This document shows, piece by piece, positions 1,427-23,596 of a stretch of DNA of 64,000 nt. The notes beneath the pieces were generated by a model, which worked only from the letters and a program-made list of their open reading frames with translations, did not search any database and was not told the DNA's origin. This stretch comes from a candidate division TA06 bacterium B3_TA06. Lineage in GTDB: Bacteria > Hydrothermota > Tepidihabitantia > B3-TA06. Both the position numbers and the translations under genes were made by a program. The stretch is from NCBI GenBank assembly GCA_005223075.1, contig NJBO01000012.1, positions 1 to 64,000 of the forward strand. Reading direction: 5' to 3'. The first letter of the stretch is position 1, and every line of letters starts with the position of its first letter.

Positions 1427-3244
1427 ATGTTCCTTTTGGTGTTAGCCCTTTATGCAGGGGAGTGGGTGGAGACTACCCAGGAAGATTTCTGCGACGGCTG
1501 CTATGAAGTGAACCTATACGCTTCCCATCGCGGTGACGGGGCTTTGGAGTTTGTACCCCGCTGGGATGCAAATAACGACAGCTGGATAGACCTTCTATCC
1601 TGCCACGTTTACGGTGGATCCAAGCTCTTCTGGGGTAGCCCGCTTGGATTTTCGGATAGTCGCTGTTGCGATTATTATGCAGGAAGCGGAGGAGGATGCT
1701 TTGCCGACCTAAATCAGGATGGGTATCCTGATTATATCTCTACCGGCCCAATATGCATCTATTGGGGGAGTCCCGACGGTCCGGATACGACAAATTTCAC
1801 CACGCTCGAAAACGGGATGGAGGCCTGCCTGGTTGCCGATTTCAACAAGGACGGTTATCTGGACATCGCCTTCGACTACGCCGATTATGATTACGGAGGC
1901 ATCTACTGGGGTTCGCAACGGGGTTATTCAGAGACAAACCTAACCCTTCTGCCCACGGTTAAGGCGCAACACAATATAGAAGCAGCGGACCTCGACAAAA
2001 ATGGTTGGCTCGATCTTGTATTCGTTAATCAGGAAGGGAACTACAACGTTATCTATTGGGGCGCAGAATCAGGCTTCCGAGCTTCAAACCGAACGCACCT
2101 TGCTTATCTTATGGAATATCCCCACGGGTGCTCGGTCGCCGACCTGGATGCTGACGGGTGGCTGGATCTTATTTTCACTGGTAACTACAATATTGATGAG
2201 TCCTGGATCTACTGGGGACCTGACTTTTATTCATGGGAGAAAACCACACTAGCCACCGGCGAGTGCTACGGCGGGTCGGCGCTCTCAGACCTTAATGGCG
2301 ACAGTCTTCTGGATATAGTGTTCTTCCGTGGAGCAACAACCAACTATCTGACCCGTATCCAATGGGGAGACGGAAACCGCTTCAGAGACGATTCATTCAG
2401 TCTGGTCGGGCCTGCCTTCAGGGCATCAGGAGGGTTCGTTGCCGACTTTAACAAGGATGGGTACCTTGATGTCTTCATGAACTCTTACGATGAGGAGAGC
2501 CCCATCCTGTACGGCCCGGATTTCGATACTTCCAGTATGACTTGCCTTCACGGCGGGATAGACCACCATGCATTGGCCAGGGAGATAGGAAACGTTTACA
2601 CCAGGGAATATAAAGAGGCCTACTACTCCTCAATCTACGACGCACAGATAGATGTTGGTTATGTGGAGTTATCATGGGAAGATTCATGTCCTGGCAACAG
2701 CAGGATACGTTTTGCCATACGGACGGGCGAGAAGCCGGACACCACAAACAACTGGTGCATGTGGACTCCGCTTGCTAACGGTGAACGCGTGGTTATCCTG
2801 AATGACTTCTACTCCATCCACCGCTATATCCAGTACAAGGCGATCTTTGAATACACTAATCCTGCCGAGCTGCCGGTGCTCAAAGAGGTTCGCATCCGCT
2901 ACGAGGAGGCGGAAGGCGTTGAAGAAGACCGCAACCTGTCTTGCCCCTTCGGGCTCATCGTTACCCCCAAGAGTTTCTGTTCCGAGTGGAGTATCCGGTT
3001 CTCTACCTCAAGTCCAGGGCCGGTGGAGCTGGCTGTCTATGACATAAGAGGTTCCCGTGTACGTACCCTGATGCAGGAAAACGTATCTGTCGGACGCTTC
3101 TCGCTTATCTGGGACGGCTGCGACGAGGATGGCATCGTTCTGCCTGAGGGTGTTTACTTCGTTCGCCTGAGAACTCCAGAAGGTGAACAGGCCACTCTTG
3201 GCTTCAAGATTATCCAACGCGTGAATATGAAGGTGTGGCTTTGA
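1427..3244 (+). CDS. Secreted FG-GAP/VCBS-repeat beta-propeller protein with C-terminal sorting-like domain
   Basis: 605 aa. A short hydrophobic N-terminus (MFLLVLALYAG) acts as a weak signal peptide. Residues ~45-370 hold about seven FG-GAP-type repeats, each with a calcium-binding DxNxDGxxD-like loop (DANNDSWID, DLNQDGYPD, DFNKDGYLD, DLDKNGWLD, DLDADGWLD, DLNGDSLLD, DFNKDGYLD) and a recurrent 'IYWG' strand. Residues ~500-600 form an Ig-like module ('LAVYDIRGSRVRTL', 'DGIVLPEGVYFVRL') of the FlgD or type IX C-terminal kind. Such proteins are exported and surface-exposed; the ligand is unknown. The ATG has a strong AAGGAGG. The stop overlaps the -35 box of mfd. Confidence 0.8.
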   Translation: MFLLVLALYAGEWVETTQEDFCDGCYEVNLYASHRGDGALEFVPRWDANNDSWIDLLSCHVYGGSKLFWGSPLGFSDSRCCDYYAGSGGGCFADLNQDGYPDYISTGPICIYWGSPDGPDTTNFTTLENGMEACLVADFNKDGYLDIAFDYADYDYGGIYWGSQRGYSETNLTLLPTVKAQHNIEAADLDKNGWLDLVFVNQEGNYNVIYWGAESGFRASNRTHLAYLMEYPHGCSVADLDADGWLDLIFTGNYNIDESWIYWGPDFYSWEKTTLATGECYGGSALSDLNGDSLLDIVFFRGATTNYLTRIQWGDGNRFRDDSFSLVGPAFRASGGFVADFNKDGYLDVFMNSYDEESPILYGPDFDTSSMTCLHGGIDHHALAREIGNVYTREYKEAYYSSIYDAQIDVGYVELSWEDSCPGNSRIRFAIRTGEKPDTTNNWCMWTPLANGERVVILNDFYSIHRYIQYKAIFEYTNPAELPVLKEVRIRYEEAEGVEEDRNLSCPFGLIVTPKSFCSEWSIRFSTSSPGPVELAVYDIRGSRVRTLMQENVSVGRFSLIWDGCDEDGIVLPEGVYFVRLRTPEGEQATLGFKIIQRVNMKVWL

Positions 3245-3268
3245 CATCCCCACGATCGTCACTACAAT
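3241..3268 (+). promoter_or_regulatory. mfd promoter, leaderless type
   Basis: TTGACA (3241-3246) overlaps the stop codon of the upstream gene. A 16-bp spacer and TACAAT (3263-3268) follow. The ATG is 9 bp downstream with no Shine-Dalgarno. Confidence 0.7.
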
Positions 3269-3277
3269 CATCCTCCC

Positions 3278-6205
3278 ATGGCTGAACACCTGACTAAAAA
3301 AGACCTCTACGCGCGCTTCCTTGAATCCGCCTCGTTGATTCGCTTCCTTGGCTTATCCGAGCTGCCTCGCTCGGTTTCAGGACTGCCGGGAGGACTGCGT
3401 GCCTTCTTTCTTAAAGCACTTCGGGGGAGCGGGAGCCAGATGCTCTACCTGGCAAAGGACTCCGAAGAGGTGGAACGCTTACTTTTTGATCTAGAGGGGA
3501 TTGATCGTACGGGTATAGTTGCGATTCGCAGGATCGAGAGCCTCAACCTGTTACGTCTTTCGTCCGGCGCGCCGAGACTGATTCTCTGTCCTGCAGAGCT
3601 GTCCGAGCAAAGCATGGGCTGGCGAGAAGAACGAGCGTCAGTCTATTTTGAGCCCTCAGGCGAGGTGGAACTTGAGGAAGCCCTGAACTGGCTTGAAGAA
3701 AACGGCTTCGAGCGCGAAACACTCCTGACCGAGCCTGCTGAGTTCGCGCAAAGGGGAGGGATATTGGACGTCTTCTCCCCCTTGTGGTCCGAACCGGTGC
3801 GGATTGAGTTCGAGGGCGACAGGGTTGTATCTATCAGACGTTTTGATCCCCTTACCCAGCGCTCGCATGAGAAACTTTCCTCGGTTGAAATCATCTCAAA
3901 CAAGCCCCCTGACAGCCAGGGACCAACGCTCCGAGAGTATCTAAAGGATAGCTTGACAATCTCCGCTCTGCCTGAGGCCTCCCCCCGATTGCTGATTACC
4001 GATAAAGCCGCAGAATTTGCACCCCAAGAGGGGTACTTTGATTTCGGCTTTACACCCGCGGTAAAAGTCTTAGGACACTTCGAGGAGCTCCGAGAGCTCG
4101 AAAGCCAGGGGCTTGAACTTTGCTTCGCGCTTGATCCTGAGCACGGGGAATCTTATCTCTCCCATCATCTTGAGCGCTTCAAGCTGGTTGACGCTCATCT
4201 CTCCGGTGGGTGGGTGGATAGAGCTACAGGTTATGGTGTTTTCACCGAGCACGAGCTGTTCGGGGTCAGGCACCGGCGCCGCCTCCCACGCCACTTCAAA
4301 GGGATTCCCTCGGACGCAATCTATGAACTTCACCCTGGCGACTACGTGGTGCACATAGACTACGGCATCGGCATCTACCAGGGGCTAAAACGTTTGGAGA
4401 TTGGAGGCCAGGAGAAGGAGTTTTTGAAGATCTCCTATGCGGGCACCGACGTTCTTTATCTGCCGGTGGAGAACCTCGGGCTCCTGGACCGCTACATAGG
4501 TGCCGAGGGTCGCGCACCTAGGGTCAACCGGCTGGGTTCACAGCGCTGGAGGCTTGCGCGCAAGCACGCCCGCAAGGCCGCATACGACTACGCCCAGGAG
4601 CTTTTAGCCCTCTATGCTAAACGGTCGGTGGTGCGCGGCCACTCCTTCAGCCGCCATCCAGACGAGATGGAGTGGGTCGAGCTTACCTTCCCTTACGAGG
4701 AGACCCCGGATCAAAAGCGCGCCATTGAATCGATCTTAGCCGATATGGAGACGCCAAACCCCATGGACAGGCTTGTCTGCGGCGAGGTGGGATACGGCAA
4801 GACCGAGGTAGCGGTGCGCGCCGCCCTCAAAGCCGCACTTGACTCAAAACAGGTGGCCATGCTCGCCCCGACAACCATCCTGGCGCTTCAGCACTACCGG
4901 ACGTTCACCGAGCGCTTGAAAGAGCTACCAATAAGGGTCCAGATGCTCTCACGCTTCGTCGGGCTGGCAGAACGCAGAAAGACATTGGCAGAGTTGGCCT
5001 CAGGCAAGGTAGACGTGCTTATCGGCACCCACGCGTTGCTTGCCGAGGCGGTGAAATGGAACGATCTGGGGCTTCTTGTAGTAGACGACGAGCACCGCTT
5101 CGGGGTCAGACAGAAGGAGCGCATCCGCCGCAAGAAAGCTGAGGTGGATACCCTGACGCTGACCGCTACGCCGATCCCGCGCACGCTGTACATGAGCCTT
5201 GTGGGGATCCGCGACGTCTCAAGGATCGAGACACCTCCCGTTGGCCGAAAAGACGTGGTGACCGAGGTATCTAACTGGTCGGACGATATGGTAAGGGAAT
5301 GGGTGCTGCGCGAGCGCTCAAGGGGAGGATTGGTGCTCTTTATACACAACAGGATCGAGACCATCGAATCGTTAAGACGCAGGCTGGAAAGGCTTCTGCC
5401 CGGACTTCGCCTAGAGGTCGCCCATGGCCAGATGCCGGAGCGAAAGCTGGTTAGTATCTATGACAGCTTCATCGAACGCAAAATAGATATCCTCATCTCT
5501 ACCGCCATCCTCGAGGCCGGCATAGACATACCGGACCTGAACACGATAATCGTTGACCGCGCTGATCTGTTTGGCCTTGCCGATCTCCATCAATTGCGCG
5601 GCCGTGTGGGGCGAGGCCAGCGTCAGGGCTATGCGCTGTTTATCGTTCCGCGAAGGACTACCGACGACGCCCGCAAACGGCTTGCCGCAATCCGCGCCTA
5701 CGCCGAGCTTGGTGCAGGATACAGGCTGGCTGTGCGTGACATGGAGATACGCGGGGTGGGCAACCTGTTGGGAACCGAGCAGCACGGACACGTGAACTCC
5801 ATAGGTTTCATGCTCTACACGAAGCTCTTATCAGAGGCGGTGGCAAGGCTCAAGGGCGAGGAGTGGTTCACCGAACCTGTGCTGGAGATAGAGCATGGCG
5901 CGTACCTGCCTGAGACCTACATCGGCGATTCGGCGGAGCGCGTCTCTCTCTACAAGCGACTCCTCTCAGTGGAGGAGGAGAGAGAGATCGACGCCCTGCA
6001 TGAGGAACTTGCCGACCGCTTCGGCAAGATGCCCTCCTCTGCCTTAAAAATTCTGGACATCGCCCGGGTTAGGGCATTAGCGAGAAAGAAGAAGGTGAGC
6101 AAGGTCAGCTATCGAAAGGATTCCTGGTTCATCCTTGCCGCCGACCGCACCCTGCGCGGCACCGGCCCGTTTGAGATGCTTTTGGATCAGCTGAGGAGAT
6201 TGTAG
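3278..6205 (+). CDS. mfd: Transcription-repair coupling factor Mfd
   Basis: 975 aa, somewhat shorter than the usual ~1,100-1,150. Mfd displaces RNA polymerase stalled at DNA lesions and recruits UvrA. Seen in order: a UvrB-like N-terminal region (RGGILDVFSP, ~res 150); the CarD-like RNA-polymerase interaction domain (HPGDYVVHIDYGIGIYQGL, ~res 350); Walker A GEVGYGKTE (~res 500); a DEAD-box variant DDEHRFGV (~res 603, where most homologues have DEEQ); TATPIPRTLYMSL; the translocation motif region HQLRGRVGRG; and the TRCF C-terminal domain. It is a single gene with its own promoter and probably leaderless. Its stop is followed by a repeat-filled spacer. Confidence 0.97.
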   Translation: MAEHLTKKDLYARFLESASLIRFLGLSELPRSVSGLPGGLRAFFLKALRGSGSQMLYLAKDSEEVERLLFDLEGIDRTGIVAIRRIESLNLLRLSSGAPRLILCPAELSEQSMGWREERASVYFEPSGEVELEEALNWLEENGFERETLLTEPAEFAQRGGILDVFSPLWSEPVRIEFEGDRVVSIRRFDPLTQRSHEKLSSVEIISNKPPDSQGPTLREYLKDSLTISALPEASPRLLITDKAAEFAPQEGYFDFGFTPAVKVLGHFEELRELESQGLELCFALDPEHGESYLSHHLERFKLVDAHLSGGWVDRATGYGVFTEHELFGVRHRRRLPRHFKGIPSDAIYELHPGDYVVHIDYGIGIYQGLKRLEIGGQEKEFLKISYAGTDVLYLPVENLGLLDRYIGAEGRAPRVNRLGSQRWRLARKHARKAAYDYAQELLALYAKRSVVRGHSFSRHPDEMEWVELTFPYEETPDQKRAIESILADMETPNPMDRLVCGEVGYGKTEVAVRAALKAALDSKQVAMLAPTTILALQHYRTFTERLKELPIRVQMLSRFVGLAERRKTLAELASGKVDVLIGTHALLAEAVKWNDLGLLVVDDEHRFGVRQKERIRRKKAEVDTLTLTATPIPRTLYMSLVGIRDVSRIETPPVGRKDVVTEVSNWSDDMVREWVLRERSRGGLVLFIHNRIETIESLRRRLERLLPGLRLEVAHGQMPERKLVSIYDSFIERKIDILISTAILEAGIDIPDLNTIIVDRADLFGLADLHQLRGRVGRGQRQGYALFIVPRRTTDDARKRLAAIRAYAELGAGYRLAVRDMEIRGVGNLLGTEQHGHVNSIGFMLYTKLLSEAVARLKGEEWFTEPVLEIEHGAYLPETYIGDSAERVSLYKRLLSVEEEREIDALHEELADRFGKMPSSALKILDIARVRALARKKKVSKVSYRKDSWFILAADRTLRGTGPFEMLLDQLRRL

Positions 6206-11439: not shown

Positions 11440-12720
11440 TTACGTTACATTGTCATCGAAGAAATGGGCTGAACTCTCAATTATTCCCTTACCCTTACGC
11501 CAGTCGTTTTTTGCTACGCTCAACAAACCACGTTTGACCTGTCTACAGATATCGATTATATCTTCGTCTAGGCAGAACGATTTTACATTCTCTCCGTGTT
11601 TTTTCACAATCTCATCGATTTGAAGGTTAAGCTTTTCAACCGTTCCAAGCCTTAAAATTATTTCCCCGTCACGCTTAACGAAGCTGTAAAAATCATGGTA
11701 GATTTCTCTCAGCAGAAGAAGTGGAAACATTACGAAGATTTCTCGTTTCCTATCGGGACTCTCAATACGAGAAACAAGAGAAAGTATCTTTTCTACAGCT
11801 CGCAGTATGCGGCGGGGATTGCCCATCGCTTTAGGTCCATACCCCTTGGATCTATCCCACCATCTACCTATAGCTTTCTCAAAATCCTTATCTGCCTCTA
11901 TTCCAACCAACTCTTTATATTTCTTCGTCACAAATCCCTGGAAATGTTCGTGAGTAGGAAGAGGAATCCTATACATCCTATCAATTAGTTTCTCCAGATA
12001 CCAATGTCCATTGATATTAACATCCTTACCAAAACGTGCCGTGATAGCATCGGCAACGACTTCTTTATCTAACGCGACGATAAAAATAACTCTTTCGCTG
12101 TCAAAGAATAACCTAAGTTTCTCTAAAAACTCGAGTGCCTTATCTGGCAAACAACGATCGAGGTCATCTACAGGTACAACAATTTTGGTATTCTTCGATT
12201 TACCCTCTAAACCTTTCTCCACCAACTCGTCGAATTGTTCGTGAAGTTCCTTCTCAGCAGCTTTCCAGATATTATAAATTTCGTCAGGTTTAGAATGCAC
12301 GTTGACCCCAGGAAGCCCTATTGACACCCACGATGCAAACTTGAATAATGTATCTCTTACCTTACCGAGCAATTCCTTGGCGCTTTCCTTTTGGGACAAC
12401 CTTAAATGTTCAGTAATAGTCTCAACCATGGCCGTTGCAAGATCAACCCTCCCAGAAAACCTCCAAAGCTCCATTCTATCAACGACTTCTAACGTTGGAT
12501 ATCTTTTTGCCCTTTGCTTTATACACTCAACAAGGAAACTCGACTTCCCTATCCCCCACTCGCCTGTAAGGCCAATCACGTATGGCGGATCGGTGGCCCT
12601 TAACTCTTCTACAAATTGCGGGACAAGTTTATCAAAACCCAGCAAGTCGTTTTTGATGTCGTCAATCGGCTCGCGCCGCTTGAAGCGGATAGTTGGTTTA
12701 GGTTCTTCGGCTTTGGTCAT
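11440..12720 (-). CDS. KAP-family P-loop NTPase
   Basis: 426 aa. Walker A GEWGIGKSS (res 53-61) after 'PPYVIGLT'; Walker B VVPVDDLD (res 181-188) followed by RCLPDKALEFLEKLRLFF and 'VIFIVALDKEVVADAI', which is the KAP signature. KAP NTPases often carry inserted membrane helices; only a weak hydrophobic stretch (~res 127-140) is seen here. Members occur in phage-exclusion and other conflict systems, so a defence role is possible but unproven, and no partner gene adjoins it. The base composition looks A+T-richer than its neighbours, suggesting acquisition. Own promoter, and GGAGGAG before the ATG. Confidence 0.85.
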   Translation of the reverse strand: MTKAEEPKPTIRFKRREPIDDIKNDLLGFDKLVPQFVEELRATDPPYVIGLTGEWGIGKSSFLVECIKQRAKRYPTLEVVDRMELWRFSGRVDLATAMVETITEHLRLSQKESAKELLGKVRDTLFKFASWVSIGLPGVNVHSKPDEIYNIWKAAEKELHEQFDELVEKGLEGKSKNTKIVVPVDDLDRCLPDKALEFLEKLRLFFDSERVIFIVALDKEVVADAITARFGKDVNINGHWYLEKLIDRMYRIPLPTHEHFQGFVTKKYKELVGIEADKDFEKAIGRWWDRSKGYGPKAMGNPRRILRAVEKILSLVSRIESPDRKREIFVMFPLLLLREIYHDFYSFVKRDGEIILRLGTVEKLNLQIDEIVKKHGENVKSFCLDEDIIDICRQVKRGLLSVAKNDWRKGKGIIESSAHFFDDNVT

Positions 12721-18673: not shown

Positions 18674-20062
18674 ATGGCTGAAGCTTTAGAGCGTATATCG
18701 GCTCCTTTGGGAGTGCTTATACAGAACGGTATGTTCACGCCGTCGCAGATAGTCAGAGAGCTTGACCGCTACATCATCGGTCAGGATGCGGCCAAGCGCG
18801 CGGTGGCCATAGCGCTCAGAAACCGCTGGCGCCGACAAAGGGTCTCCGGACCCTTACGTGACGAGATATATCCCAACAACATCATGATGATCGGCCCAAC
18901 CGGCGTGGGCAAGACCGAGATCGCCCGACGTCTGGCCCAGCTGGCAGAGGCACCGTTCGTCAAGGTCGAGGCCTCCAAGTTCACCGAGGTCGGATACGTG
19001 GGCCGGGACGTTGAGTCCATGATACGCGAGCTTGTCGAGATCGCGGTCAAGATGGTCAGGGAAGAACAGACCCTAAAGGTCCAGGCCAAGGCTGAAGAGC
19101 ACGCACGGGAGAGGGTGGTCGACCTCCTCTTACCCAGCATGCCACAACCCAGGGAGGGCGAACCGGACACTCGCGCCGAGACCCGTGCCAAGCTCAGAAA
19201 GATGCTTGATTCAGGCAGGCTGGATGAACGCACGGTGGAGATCAACACCTCACGTGAGCCCGCAGGACTCTTCGACCTCTTCCGCATGAGCGGCATGGAC
19301 GAGGTCAATGTCGAGCTTCAGGATATGCTTCAAAACGCCCTGCCGCGCAAGCAAAAAACGCGCCGCGCAACCGTAAAGGAGGCCCTAAGGATACTTATCC
19401 AGGAGGAGGCGGCCAAGCTTGTAGATATGGAAGAGGTAACCCGGCTGGCCAAGCAGCGTGCCGAGAACTCGGGGATCGTCTTTATAGACGAGATAGACAA
19501 GATCGCGGTGGGCGAGGGCACGCGGGGGCATGCAGGACCGGACGTATCGCGCGAGGGCGTGCAGCGAGACCTTTTGCCCATCATAGAAGGATCAAACGTA
19601 TCCACAAAGTACGGGCTGGTTCGCACCGATCATATCCTTTTTATCGGTGCGGGTGCTTTCCACAAGACCAAGCCCTCGGATCTGATCCCCGAGCTTCAGG
19701 GCCGCATGCCCATAAGGGTGGAGCTTGACTCCTTGACCAAGGAGGATTTCGAGCGCATTCTGACCGAGCCTGAGACAGCGCTCGTAAAGCAGTACCAGGC
19801 TCTGGTCGAGACCGAGAACACAAAGCTTAGCTTCACCAAGGATGGCATCGTGGCCGTGGCGGAGATCGCGGCACTGGTTAACGAGCGTTCTGAGAACATA
19901 GGCGCGCGCCGGCTGCACACGGTGATGACTACCTTATTGGAGGATTATCTCTACAACCTGCCGGAGTCGGGCGAGCGGGCGATTAAGATCACTGGCAAGG
20001 CCGTTCGCGCCAAGCTAGACGCCATCGTCGCCGACGAGGACCTGAGCCAGTACATTCTGTAA
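18674..20062 (+). CDS. hslU: ATP-dependent protease ATPase subunit HslU
   Basis: 462 aa. AAA+ unfoldase that feeds substrates to the HslV peptidase. Seen: N-terminal '[34 protein letters not shown]'-type start; Walker [10 protein letters not shown] (~res 74); the GYVGRDVES pore loop; the helical I-domain (~res 110-230); Walker [13 protein letters not shown] (~res 266); and the C-terminal tail [10 protein letters not shown], which docks into HslV. hslV normally lies just upstream, but here the upstream DNA is repeats and a private promoter. The intact tail predicts hslV elsewhere in the genome. Confidence 0.95.
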
Positions 20063-20081: not shown

Positions 20082-20109
20082 TTGACAAAATCCAACTTCT
20101 AGTTATACT
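20082..20109 (+). promoter_or_regulatory. Promoter of the 334-aa/PIN gene pair
   Basis: TTGACA (20082-20087), 16-bp spacer, TATACT (20104-20109). Leader of about 10-16 nt with TTGGAGGCG before the ATG. Confidence 0.7.
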
Positions 20110-20125
20110 GTAATTATATTCCAAC

Positions 20126-21130
20126 TTGGAGGCGATCATGGCTGGAAGTAACGTTACACATCTACTCACGATAAAGCTTGACGGCCCCAAGATCAAGCCG
20201 GGGCGTATCCCATTAAGTGATCTAGTGGCTTTAGGCGATAGGCTGATGAAAGCCATTGAACGCTCCGCAATGATATTAGGAGGAAAAGCGGTTAGTCTAA
20301 AGCGTGGCCGCAGAGCCAAGAAATTAAGGGAACCCTGTGCTCTTGACTTGGTAAGTATAGGCAGAGGAAGTGTTACTCTGGGATTCGAACGTACAACGAA
20401 GTTACCCGAGTTTGACGAAACAGATCCGGGATTGCAGGTAATAGAGAAAAGTATACAGGGACTAAACAAAGTCGTAAGTGACGTTGAAAAACCACTACCT
20501 CCTGGCTTTGACGAAGGGGTTTTGCTGGCGTGGCGAGATGTAGGGAAGCCTCTCCTCAGTAAACGCATAACCAAGATGGAATTCACCCTCAACCACCAGA
20601 GGACGCCTTTAACCGTAACTTACAACAAAACCGGCTTCAATAGGATACAAAAACGTATTCGGAAACCCGTAACAAACCAAAGAACAATAGAAGGCCGTCT
20701 ATTGATGGCTGATTTCAAAGAAGAAGGTCCACGAATCAGAGTGCATCCCTCAATAGGTAAACCCGTAATCTGCTACTTTAAGGATTCGCTACGTGAGGAG
20801 GTGTATGAAAACATTCTGCACTTCGTAGAGGTAACGGGTGAAGCAAATATTAATCCTCAAACAGGGGAAATTATTAGCATCAAGATTTCAGATGTAAATC
20901 GCCTAGAAAGCAAAGAAGACGAACTCACAGACAAACTACCCTCCGGTTCACCCTTACAGGAAGGCTTTTGGTCAGAACTTTCTTTAGAGGAACTTGCTGA
21001 AGCGCAAGGCGTGAAGCGCTTAACTAATATCGAAGAAATCCTCGGTAAGTGGCCAGGGGATGAAAACGAGGGGGATATAGCGGAAGAAATCCGTAAATGG
21101 CGAGCCGAAGATCTCCACGAGGTTCGTTAG
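20126..21130 (+). CDS. Putative large antitoxin partner of a PIN toxin
   Basis: 334 aa, no recognised family. The N-terminal ~200 residues form an unassigned domain ('IPLSDLVALGDRLMKAIERSA', 'ALDLVSIGRGSVTLGFE', 'PPGFDEGVLLAWRDVGKPL'). The middle has TIEGRLLMADFKE and RIRVHPSIGKPVICYF. The C-terminal ~50 residues look like the toxin-binding tail of VapB-type antitoxins: FWSELSLEELAEAQGVKRL, then EILGKWPGDENE and IRKWR. A PIN gene starts directly at its stop. It is far longer than a normal VapB (about 70-90 aa). Function as antitoxin, autoregulator or RNA-binding partner is inferred from tail and context. A Shine-Dalgarno (GGAGGCG) precedes the ATG. Confidence 0.6.
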   Translation: MEAIMAGSNVTHLLTIKLDGPKIKPGRIPLSDLVALGDRLMKAIERSAMILGGKAVSLKRGRRAKKLREPCALDLVSIGRGSVTLGFERTTKLPEFDETDPGLQVIEKSIQGLNKVVSDVEKPLPPGFDEGVLLAWRDVGKPLLSKRITKMEFTLNHQRTPLTVTYNKTGFNRIQKRIRKPVTNQRTIEGRLLMADFKEEGPRIRVHPSIGKPVICYFKDSLREEVYENILHFVEVTGEANINPQTGEIISIKISDVNRLESKEDELTDKLPSGSPLQEGFWSELSLEELAEAQGVKRLTNIEEILGKWPGDENEGDIAEEIRKWRAEDLHEVR

Positions 21131-21529
21131 GTGGAACACGTTCTGATCGACACCAACGTACTCTCTTACATCTTTAAAAATGATACCAGAAGTTCTTCCT
21201 ATTTGCCATACCTTTCATCCGACAAACTCCTCGCTGTTTCTTTCCAGACTGTAGCTGAGCTATACCTTTGGGCAGAAAAGCAATCTTGGTCGAACCCCAA
21301 AATCAATGAACTGCAAAACCTGCTCCAGAAATTCATCATTGTCCTTTATGATAACAAACTAGCACATATTTGGGCCGGAATTGTCGCTACACGAGAAAGA
21401 ATCGGCACGCCTATTTCTTGCGCTGATGCATGGGTAGCTTCCTGCGCTTTACGACACTCCGCAACGCTCATTACACATAACAGAAAAGATTTCGAAAATA
21501 TTCCTAAACTTAAGGTTATTTCCCACTAA
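21131..21529 (+). CDS. PIN-domain (VapC-like) ribonuclease toxin
   Basis: 132 aa, GTG start immediately after the upstream stop. PIN fold with the four acidic positions expected for metal-dependent RNase activity: D7 in LIDTNVL, E43 in VAELYLW, D99 in CADAWVAS, and D120 in THNRKDF. VapC-type toxins cleave tRNA or rRNA when freed from the antitoxin. The tight coupling with the 334-aa gene supports a TA operon. All key residues are present, so it looks active. It converges on the PorV-like gene. Confidence 0.85.
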   Translation: MEHVLIDTNVLSYIFKNDTRSSSYLPYLSSDKLLAVSFQTVAELYLWAEKQSWSNPKINELQNLLQKFIIVLYDNKLAHIWAGIVATRERIGTPISCADAWVASCALRHSATLITHNRKDFENIPKLKVISH

Positions 21530-21562: not shown

Positions 21563-23596
21563 TTACCCGCCGGCGAGGGCTTCGAGTTTGGCCTGGGCGC
21601 GGGCAAGGTTCTTGCGCGCGTTGGCGTGGCCCGGGTCTATCTCAAGAACCCGCTGCCAGTAGGAGATAGCAAGCTCGTAGTTGTTCTCGGAGTATGATTC
21701 AACCCCTAAAAGGTAGAGCTTCTGCACGTCGGCAGCCTTCTTTGCCGCCTTCTCGATCTCGGCCAGGTTCTGCTGCACCTCTATGTTTGCAGGATCAAGC
21801 TGCAGCGCGGCCCTTAGCTCCTTCTCCGAACGCGCCGGGTCCTGGGTTTCCTTGGCGCGCGCCAGGCGTCGCTGCACGTCCTCTGAGAGCCTGCGGTCTA
21901 TCTCGCCCAGCTTCTGCAAAAGCTCGGCGTTCTGGGGAGCAAGCCTTAAAAGCCCACGTACCTTAGACTTTGCCTCGGAGTAGCGGCTGCGACCCAGCAG
22001 TGCGCCAACCTCCTTGATCTCGGCTGATATATAGCGGTCGATCTCCTCCTTGGTCTTGCGCATGTAGTCGCGAGCCACCTCGTTGTCGCGATCGTAGTCA
22101 AGCACCTTCTCGAAGGAACGCATGGCGGTAAGGTAGTCCTGTGTGGCAAGTGCCTCGATGCCTTTCCGCAGGTCGTCCTGTATCACGACAGGGGCCGAGG
22201 CGATAAGCTCTTTGGTAACACCCTCTTCTGCATCCTCTTGATAGAACAGGGCAAGGCTGTGGGTTGAATCCTGGGCCAGTATCTGCTCGGCCAGCACCAC
22301 CAGCGCCACGTAGTTCTTGCTCACGTAGGCCTTTTTTGCCCCCTCAACCAAGGAGTTCAGCGCCATCTGTTCCTTCTCTGCATTAACCTTGGCAATCATC
22401 CCCTGCGCCTGGGTGTTCTCCGGCCACCAGATAAGTGCCAGATCCCAGCTCGCCAGCGCTTCGTCGTATCTGTCCATGTTGTAGGAGGTCATCCCCTGCT
22501 CATACAGGCTCTGGCTGGTGAGCTTCATCCGTTCAAGCGCCTCTTTCTCGGCCTCTTTGCGCGCCTCGGCAAGGAGCCGCTCTCGCTCCGCCTCGCTTGC
22601 ACCGAAGTGAAAACCTATATCAAGCCCGTGAATGCCGCCTGCGCCGAAGTATGTATTGGGCAGGTAGGAGTAGTTGATCTCCAGGTTGGCAAGCTGCAGG
22701 CCGAAGCCGGTGGCCAGACCGTTGATGAGGTGGCCGGCGATCCGCTCGGAGGTATAGCCCATTCTGAGCGAGAGGACCCGCCAGAGGGAGTACTCCAAAG
22801 CGCCCGAGATCACCAGCCCGCGCGCACCGTACCCCGCGCCTGCCAGGAGCGCAAGCTTGTCTTCCAAAAGCCCGTAGCGTGCAGAACCGCAGACGTAAAG
22901 CGGCTGCAGGGCGCCGTTGCTTTCGACGGTGTCGCCCGAGAGGGTGTCGGAGCCTGCAAGATCGAACCTCATGCGGGGACCGAGATTCTGAACAACAAGC
23001 CCCAGGCTCAAATCCCCGAGTTCCTGATACGCTCCGAGGTCTACAGCCACCGATGCGGCCTGGAAATCGGGGCTATCTTCGAGGTAGGGATTTGTGCCAA
23101 GGGAGACGGTCTGCGCGCGAAGGGCCAATCCGGCACTGAAACTTCCAAATCGACGGGAAAAGGAGAGCGCAGGGGCAAAGGCGGAAGCATTCGTGTTGTC
23201 TAGATAATAGTCGGGATTGGCAGGGTCGGGACGCACCTCGATGCCCTGCACATTGGCTCCCTTGAACCCCACGCTGAAGGTTCCGAACCTCGCTGGGAAG
23301 ACCCCGATCAGCCCCGCTGAATTCACAAACCCCATGTTCTGCATGCCCGCGATGACCACCGTCTGCTCGGCAAACGCCGAGGTAGCCGGGTTGTTATAAA
23401 GGCTCATGCGATCCGCGGGCACGGCCTGCATGACCTCTGCCAAGGCAAGACCTCGCGCGCCGAAGGAGACGTCAAGGATCGAAAGCCCGGGGGCCGAGGC
23501 CTCAGGAATGGACTGGGCAAGAACAGAGACTACCCCCAAACCCATCATCACCCCCAACATCAGAGAAAATCTCAACGAACTCTTGATAACACCCAT
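21563..23596 (-). CDS. PorV/PorQ-like outer-membrane protein with C-terminal TPR repeats
   Basis: 677 aa. A signal peptide ends at VLAQ (~res 28). Residues ~30-330 resemble the PorV/PorQ (UPF0164) beta-barrel: 'FGARGLALAEVMQAVPADRM', 'LYNNPATSAF', 'LSFSRRFGSFSAGLALRAQT', 'LGLVVQNLGPRM', and 'LGMGYTS'-like late strands. A Lys/Glu-rich linker ('EREAL..A..EAEKEAL') leads to several TPR units (~res 360-675) such as 'YEQGMTSYNMDRYDEALASW' and 'SYWQRVLEIDPGHANARKNL'. PorV helps type IX secretion in Bacteroidetes. The fused TPR half is unusual and may scaffold partners in the periplasm. It overlaps the upstream propeller gene by one base, forming an operon. Confidence 0.75.
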   Translation of the reverse strand: MGVIKSSLRFSLMLGVMMGLGVVSVLAQSIPEASAPGLSILDVSFGARGLALAEVMQAVPADRMSLYNNPATSAFAEQTVVIAGMQNMGFVNSAGLIGVFPARFGTFSVGFKGANVQGIEVRPDPANPDYYLDNTNASAFAPALSFSRRFGSFSAGLALRAQTVSLGTNPYLEDSPDFQAASVAVDLGAYQELGDLSLGLVVQNLGPRMRFDLAGSDTLSGDTVESNGALQPLYVCGSARYGLLEDKLALLAGAGYGARGLVISGALEYSLWRVLSLRMGYTSERIAGHLINGLATGFGLQLANLEINYSYLPNTYFGAGGIHGLDIGFHFGASEAERERLLAEARKEAEKEALERMKLTSQSLYEQGMTSYNMDRYDEALASWDLALIWWPENTQAQGMIAKVNAEKEQMALNSLVEGAKKAYVSKNYVALVVLAEQILAQDSTHSLALFYQEDAEEGVTKELIASAPVVIQDDLRKGIEALATQDYLTAMRSFEKVLDYDRDNEVARDYMRKTKEEIDRYISAEIKEVGALLGRSRYSEAKSKVRGLLRLAPQNAELLQKLGEIDRRLSEDVQRRLARAKETQDPARSEKELRAALQLDPANIEVQQNLAEIEKAAKKAADVQKLYLLGVESYSENNYELAISYWQRVLEIDPGHANARKNLARAQAKLEALAGG

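Follow-up and report, generated by a model that had tools for sequence, protein, structure and literature searches.

The window, a stretch of 64,000 nucleotides, contains on its forward strand a gene pair which is flanked by hslU (18674-20062) on one side and by a convergent gene of 677 aa (end at 21563) on the other. A sigma-70-like operon promoter, TTGACA and TATACT with a spacing of 16 nucleotides (20082-20109, +), matches the consensus at 11 of 12 positions, and its -35 region is retained beside a PIN relic in a sister genome. The repeat TCCAACTT (20091-20098 and 20120-20127, +) is, judged from its sequence, a candidate operator. For the first gene, a putative antitoxin gene (20138-21130, +), a length of 334 aa was given in the preliminary description. 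The ORF is present, but the preferred start is the ATG at 20138, which is preceded by GGAGG (20128-20132) and leads to a product of 330 aa, while 334 aa would result from the alternative start TTG at 20126. The stop codon (21128-21130) abuts the GTG (21131) of the second gene, a VapC-type PIN-domain toxin gene of 132 aa (21131-21529, +), and a single promoter is located upstream of both.

The assignment of the toxin is based on a Pfam PIN match of 3.3e-14 and on matches to solved VapC toxins, the best of which was 6nkl (1.2e-11). In agreement with the preliminary description, which had reported a PIN toxin with all four acidic residues beginning at the stop of the long gene, D7, E43, D99 and D120 are present, and D120 aligns with the glutamate of the N-x-(K/R)-E-F motif in solved VapCs. 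The VapC lineage resembles the tRNA(fMet)-specific VapC, for which the NCBIfam model gave 65.5 bits compared to a cut-off of 140 bits. The antitoxins usually encoded 5' of this PIN lineage carry small DNA-binding N-terminal domains (AbrB, Phd). The closest plasmid relative of the toxin was observed on a Deinococcus plasmid (L012, 997-3381), in a defence-like cluster of AIPR, HTH, small ORF, VapC and DNA methylase. A type I-F CRISPR locus on a Vitreoscilla plasmid (L017, 1235-1890) contains a VapC-like toxin pair between its cas3f and csy1 genes.

The 330-aa protein showed no match in Pfam, NCBIfam (both up to E=10) or PHROGs, and a VapB DNA-binding domain (AbrB, RHH, Phd) was not found in it with Pfam and NCBIfam up to the same value. 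The single PADLOC match was PDC-M32A (E=6e-4, residues 54-239), where PDC denotes a phage defence candidate (PMC12429752). With the same model, a paralogue was found in the same genome (L002, contig C17, E=6e-36). A PIN gene, which belongs to a VapC lineage other than that in the window, overlaps its end by 4 nt, and an ortholog of the paralogue (L003/L036) is present in a sister species with the title Candidatus Stahlbacteria. An HMM of the N-terminal domain, built from 16 relatives with the window protein left out, matched the window protein collinearly over residues 57-258 with 15.9 bits. Among 4,000 shuffled sequences (2,000 each of the window protein and of L020), the best reached 13.2 bits, and those made from the window protein stayed at or below 7.4 bits. 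A comparison by hhalign resulted in 220 columns that are collinear end to end (P=3e-4). Since the PADLOC M32A model also assigns E=0.005 to a phage capsid gene in another genome, the M32A link of the window protein is suggestive and not decisive. It gains weight by the N-terminal position of the domain and the PIN neighbour, both of which are common to the paralogue. The domain of about 280 residues, regarded as unplaceable in the preliminary description, is in this way placed by profile search with the N-terminal domain of PDC-M32A, to which residues 1-258 appear to be distantly and collinearly related.

Pattern scans of viral and genome contigs yielded no relatives when the query was the window protein, the paralogue or a single M32A protein; a small alignment did retrieve relatives in the genome contigs. 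A tblastn search of the window protein against plasmids and phages yielded nothing. Two candidates, the phage capsid gene L004 and L023, were discarded as chance matches. One PIN-linked relative matches PDC-M63B (1.9e-6).

AlphaFold2 models were obtained for the window protein (pLDDT 69) and for the ortholog of the paralogue (pLDDT 77). Both comprise the same order of elements, namely strand, long helix, two strands, helices, two strands and helix, and in the last part of both models the order strand-strand-strand-helix-strand-strand corresponds to an OB topology. In the window protein, an alpha/beta subdomain (residues 1-175; 20138-20662, +), indicated by PADLOC, HMM, hhalign and AlphaFold2, forms the N-terminal half of the M32A-like domain. 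Next comes the predicted OB fold (residues 178-255; 20669-20902, +), which holds IEGRLLMADFKE and RVHPSIGKPV. Since the input alignments contained M32A relatives, the two models are not independent of each other or of the M32A kinship. A Foldseek comparison with the PDB returned mostly OB folds for both models, including single-stranded DNA-binding proteins, RPA, Stn1, anticodon-binding domains of class II tRNA synthetases, IF1 and eIF5A. For the window model, many of the matches had a probability of about 1 and none an E below 0.001; they point to OB folds in general. The nucleic-acid-binding function suggested in the preliminary description is consistent with this predicted fold.

Among viral models, three covered most of the ortholog's fold, namely a DUF6575 protein (3.8e-9), a myovirus protein without a name (1.2e-8) and one from Leptospira phage LE1 (2.9e-8). 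The low TM-scores of 0.30-0.40 indicate that the orientation of the subdomains differs between the ortholog and these proteins. DUF6575 is among the domains of E. coli defence systems obtained by functional selection (PMC9519451). The LE1 protein, taken to be LE1-0037 from its length of 381 aa, belongs to the PADLOC family PDC-M02B (1e-64), and a DUF4365 gene of PDC-M02A precedes it. This M02A/M02B pair (L086, 38735-40413, reverse strand) is annotated as hypothetical only. Kinship to PDC-M02B at the sequence level found no support in the comparison and applies to the fold level. A further module-like arrangement of helix and OB fold was observed at the C-terminus of a 348-aa protein (L069, reverse complement 826-1869), which is encoded immediately 5' of a type III Mod-like methylase.

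Behind the OB fold, residues 265-330 (20930-21127, +) were modelled with low confidence and are predicted to be disordered except for a helix at 311-328, as might plausibly be expected for the tail of an unbound antitoxin. The VapB-like character ascribed before to the last 50 or so residues is plausible in view of these features, but the tail was not recognised by profiles or databases: searches in Pfam, NCBIfam and sequence databases gave no recognised antitoxin or significant relative. Weak matches to methylases, unrelated genes and a long Streptomyces protein were dismissed. Since no relatives are recognised, its role as a putative toxin-binding tail is assigned by analogy with the PIN-linked loci.

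To describe the combinations of domain, tail and partner, about 1,000 genomes and database loci were surveyed, which resulted in about 30 independent loci, most of them from metagenome-assembled genomes. With a VapB-type tail behind the N-terminal domain, a PIN gene comes next in 8 of 9 loci (the window, L002/L036, L029, L030, L033, L059, L061 and L063), the window being counted by analogy of its tail. With the M32A C-terminal domain in this position, a PIN gene comes next in 0 of 21, where M32B or an unassigned gene is found instead (tail type versus PIN partner, Fisher p=1.5e-6). The preliminary description had made its proposal dependent on a conserved co-occurrence of the long gene with PIN. 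This does not hold for the N-terminal domain family, which mostly lacks a PIN neighbour, so that a PIN-specific N-terminal domain was rejected, but it does hold for the homologues with a VapB-type tail. In the lone exception among the nine, L067 (reverse complement 1438-3667, see also L071), an XRE-ImmA metallopeptidase gene, and not a PIN gene, overlaps the gene with the VapB-type tail. In seven of the eight PIN loci the two genes overlap by 4 nt, whereas those of the window abut. Since the architecture recurs with a diverged PIN in the same genome and at six other loci, it is not attributed to chance.

Both types of tail also occur without the N-terminal domain. A Stanieria plasmid encodes a 102-aa antitoxin with the tail of the paralogue, and its PIN is 49% identical to that of the paralogue. 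At L070, L082, L083 and L085, the M32A C-terminal domain stands alone before M32B. Since the tails keep the same partners with or without the N-terminal domain, the tail appears to set the partner, and the N-terminal domain would be the common, transferable part. A possible further toxin type was observed in genome G083 (L020, 886-1899 and 601-879, reverse strand), where a 338-aa gene with a HicB-like C-terminus precedes a HicA-like gene (E=0.07 with Pfam HicA, below the cut-off). The N-terminal domain of the 338-aa gene was not significant and the locus was left uncounted.

Altogether, the pair is probably a toxin-antitoxin operon of type II, similar to VapBC, in which the antitoxin carries a transferable, M32A-related alpha/beta and OB input module that governs the release of the toxin. 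This upholds the earlier proposal of a toxin-antitoxin-like pair whose antitoxin bears a large additional domain. In the 330-aa protein, the C-terminal tail would wrap and inhibit the PIN RNase encoded just downstream, and the first 258 or so residues would act as the input module, which is also placed before other antitoxin-like tails. The module would most likely bind a nucleic acid or a protein which arises or is altered in the course of an attack by phage or foreign DNA, or on failure of a neighbouring restriction system. Binding of this ligand, or degradation of the antitoxin, would free the PIN toxin, which would then cleave tRNA and stop translation; tRNA is the expected target because of the names of the solved VapC relatives. 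The gene order, the PIN family with its active-site residues, the modularity of tails and partners, the defence neighbours of four related cassettes and the joint gene loss in the sister species are read directly from sequence, and the OB fold and disordered tail are predictions. For the pair itself, we infer the neutralisation, the ligand of the OB fold, the trigger, the tRNA target and the role in defence. Tentatively, it is also conceivable that the module was grafted onto unrelated tails (two VapB types, the M32A C-terminal domain and perhaps a HicB-like one), giving abortive-infection switches coupled to phage or restriction.

In few toxin-antitoxin systems is it understood what sets the toxin free. 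A separate large domain recurring before different toxin-binding tails makes this trigger directly testable, and the module may be a reusable sensor which times the release of an RNA-cutting toxin. The predicted OB fold also represents a first structural hypothesis for PDC-M32, a family of defence candidates of unknown function, and the two-gene layout of this family could be explained as one form of the modular scheme.

A plain VapBC addiction or stress module, in which the N-terminal domain only dimerises and binds the operator for autoregulation without sensing of phage or restriction, is considered a serious, although rather unlikely, alternative. The small DNA-binding antitoxins typical of this PIN lineage, the presence of the TCCAACTT repeat on both sides of the -10 element, an OB fold able to bind DNA, and the window locus itself, which has no adjoining defence or restriction-modification genes, would all be in line with it. 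However, the domain is far bigger than the usual VapB DNA-binding domain and also occurs in PADLOC defence candidates, and of the eight PIN cassettes, four are situated in loci for restriction-modification or defence. Two of these, L029 and L030, are located upstream of HsdM genes, L072 has a methylase gene on one side and a type III Res-like gene on the other, and L074 lies close to an OLD-like ATPase and a Mod-like methylase; these identities were obtained by reading the translations and not by profile search. Together with the PDC-M32A kinship, these neighbours of related cassettes favour the link to defence suggested in the preliminary description.

An M32A-related input module would be absent if residues 1-258 were unrelated to PDC-M32A and represented another large domain on a similar antitoxin of the same genome. 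The marginal pairwise scores and the chance match of similar score elsewhere would allow for this. It is nevertheless improbable in view of the full-length collinear alignment, the matching succession of predicted secondary-structure elements in the two models, and the PIN partner in both the window pair and the paralogue.

In the sister species G001, the corresponding hslU-flanked site still contains the -35 region and a 3' relic of the PIN gene (63% identity over residues 84-131) but lacks the antitoxin gene and the larger part of the PIN gene. This relic indicates that the cassette was present before the two species diverged and that its genes were lost together. A nuclease recruiter outside the toxin-antitoxin class, in which the 330-aa protein binds nucleic acid and guides the PIN nuclease to its target as a two-component effector, would fit an OB fold beside a nuclease and the pairing of canonical M32A with another partner of unknown function, M32B, but is very improbable given this joint loss, the disordered helical tail, the antitoxin-toxin gene order, the 4-nt overlaps and the tail and PIN pair with a short antitoxin lacking the domain. 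Downstream of hslU (L039-L041), the site was found to be variable in the genus, with a PIN relic in one species and unrelated DNA in two others.

By its layout the window pair resembles a VapBC system, yet it is neither a PDC-M32 nor a Panacea antitoxin system. It shares with VapBC the PIN toxin with its acidic tetrad and the antitoxin gene directly 5', and possibly a C-terminal toxin-binding tail. In contrast, its antitoxin carries an alpha/beta and OB domain of about 258 residues where a small domain of the AbrB, RHH or Phd type would be usual. In the literature library searched, the arrangement of domain, tail and PIN was not described in any paper.

With PDC-M32 (M32A and M32B), the pair appears to have the N-terminal domain in common, by a weak match of the window protein and a clear one of the paralogue. 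The M32A C-terminal domain is missing, since the PADLOC match stops at residue 239 and the tail is different, and PADLOC gave no match for M32B; a VapB-type tail and a PIN gene take their places. A distantly related candidate, PDC-M63 (PDC-M63AB), showed no defence activity in one test in the native host (PMC12409345).

Hyperpromiscuous antitoxins are described for Panacea (PanA), and an antitoxin containing this domain neutralises diverse toxins (PMC10440598). The joining of one domain family with unrelated toxins through partner swapping is similar, but the window protein has no Panacea (DUF4065) match in Pfam up to E=10, and in loci of the window type the partner goes with the swapped tail. 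PD-T4-10 and CmdTAC are defence toxin-antitoxin operons with an unusual or chaperone-linked antitoxin that act by abortive infection (PMC9519451). They resemble the pair as antitoxin-toxin operons with an unusual antitoxin, while the toxins differ and the PADLOC scan showed no sequence kinship. PrrC is a latent anticodon nuclease which is silenced by a type I restriction-modification complex. A likeness would exist if the PIN toxin were freed on disabling of a neighbouring restriction system; the nuclease fold is different, and linkage to restriction-modification is found in related cassettes and not at the window locus.

Two further genes on the reverse strand of the window were identified by eye. 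A 201-aa protein (581-1183) appears to contain a Panacea/DUF4065-like antitoxin domain (VKLAKLLFFADLKAYK), and a 426-aa P-loop protein (11443-12720) appears KAP-NTPase-like, a class that is frequently linked to phage exclusion or defence.
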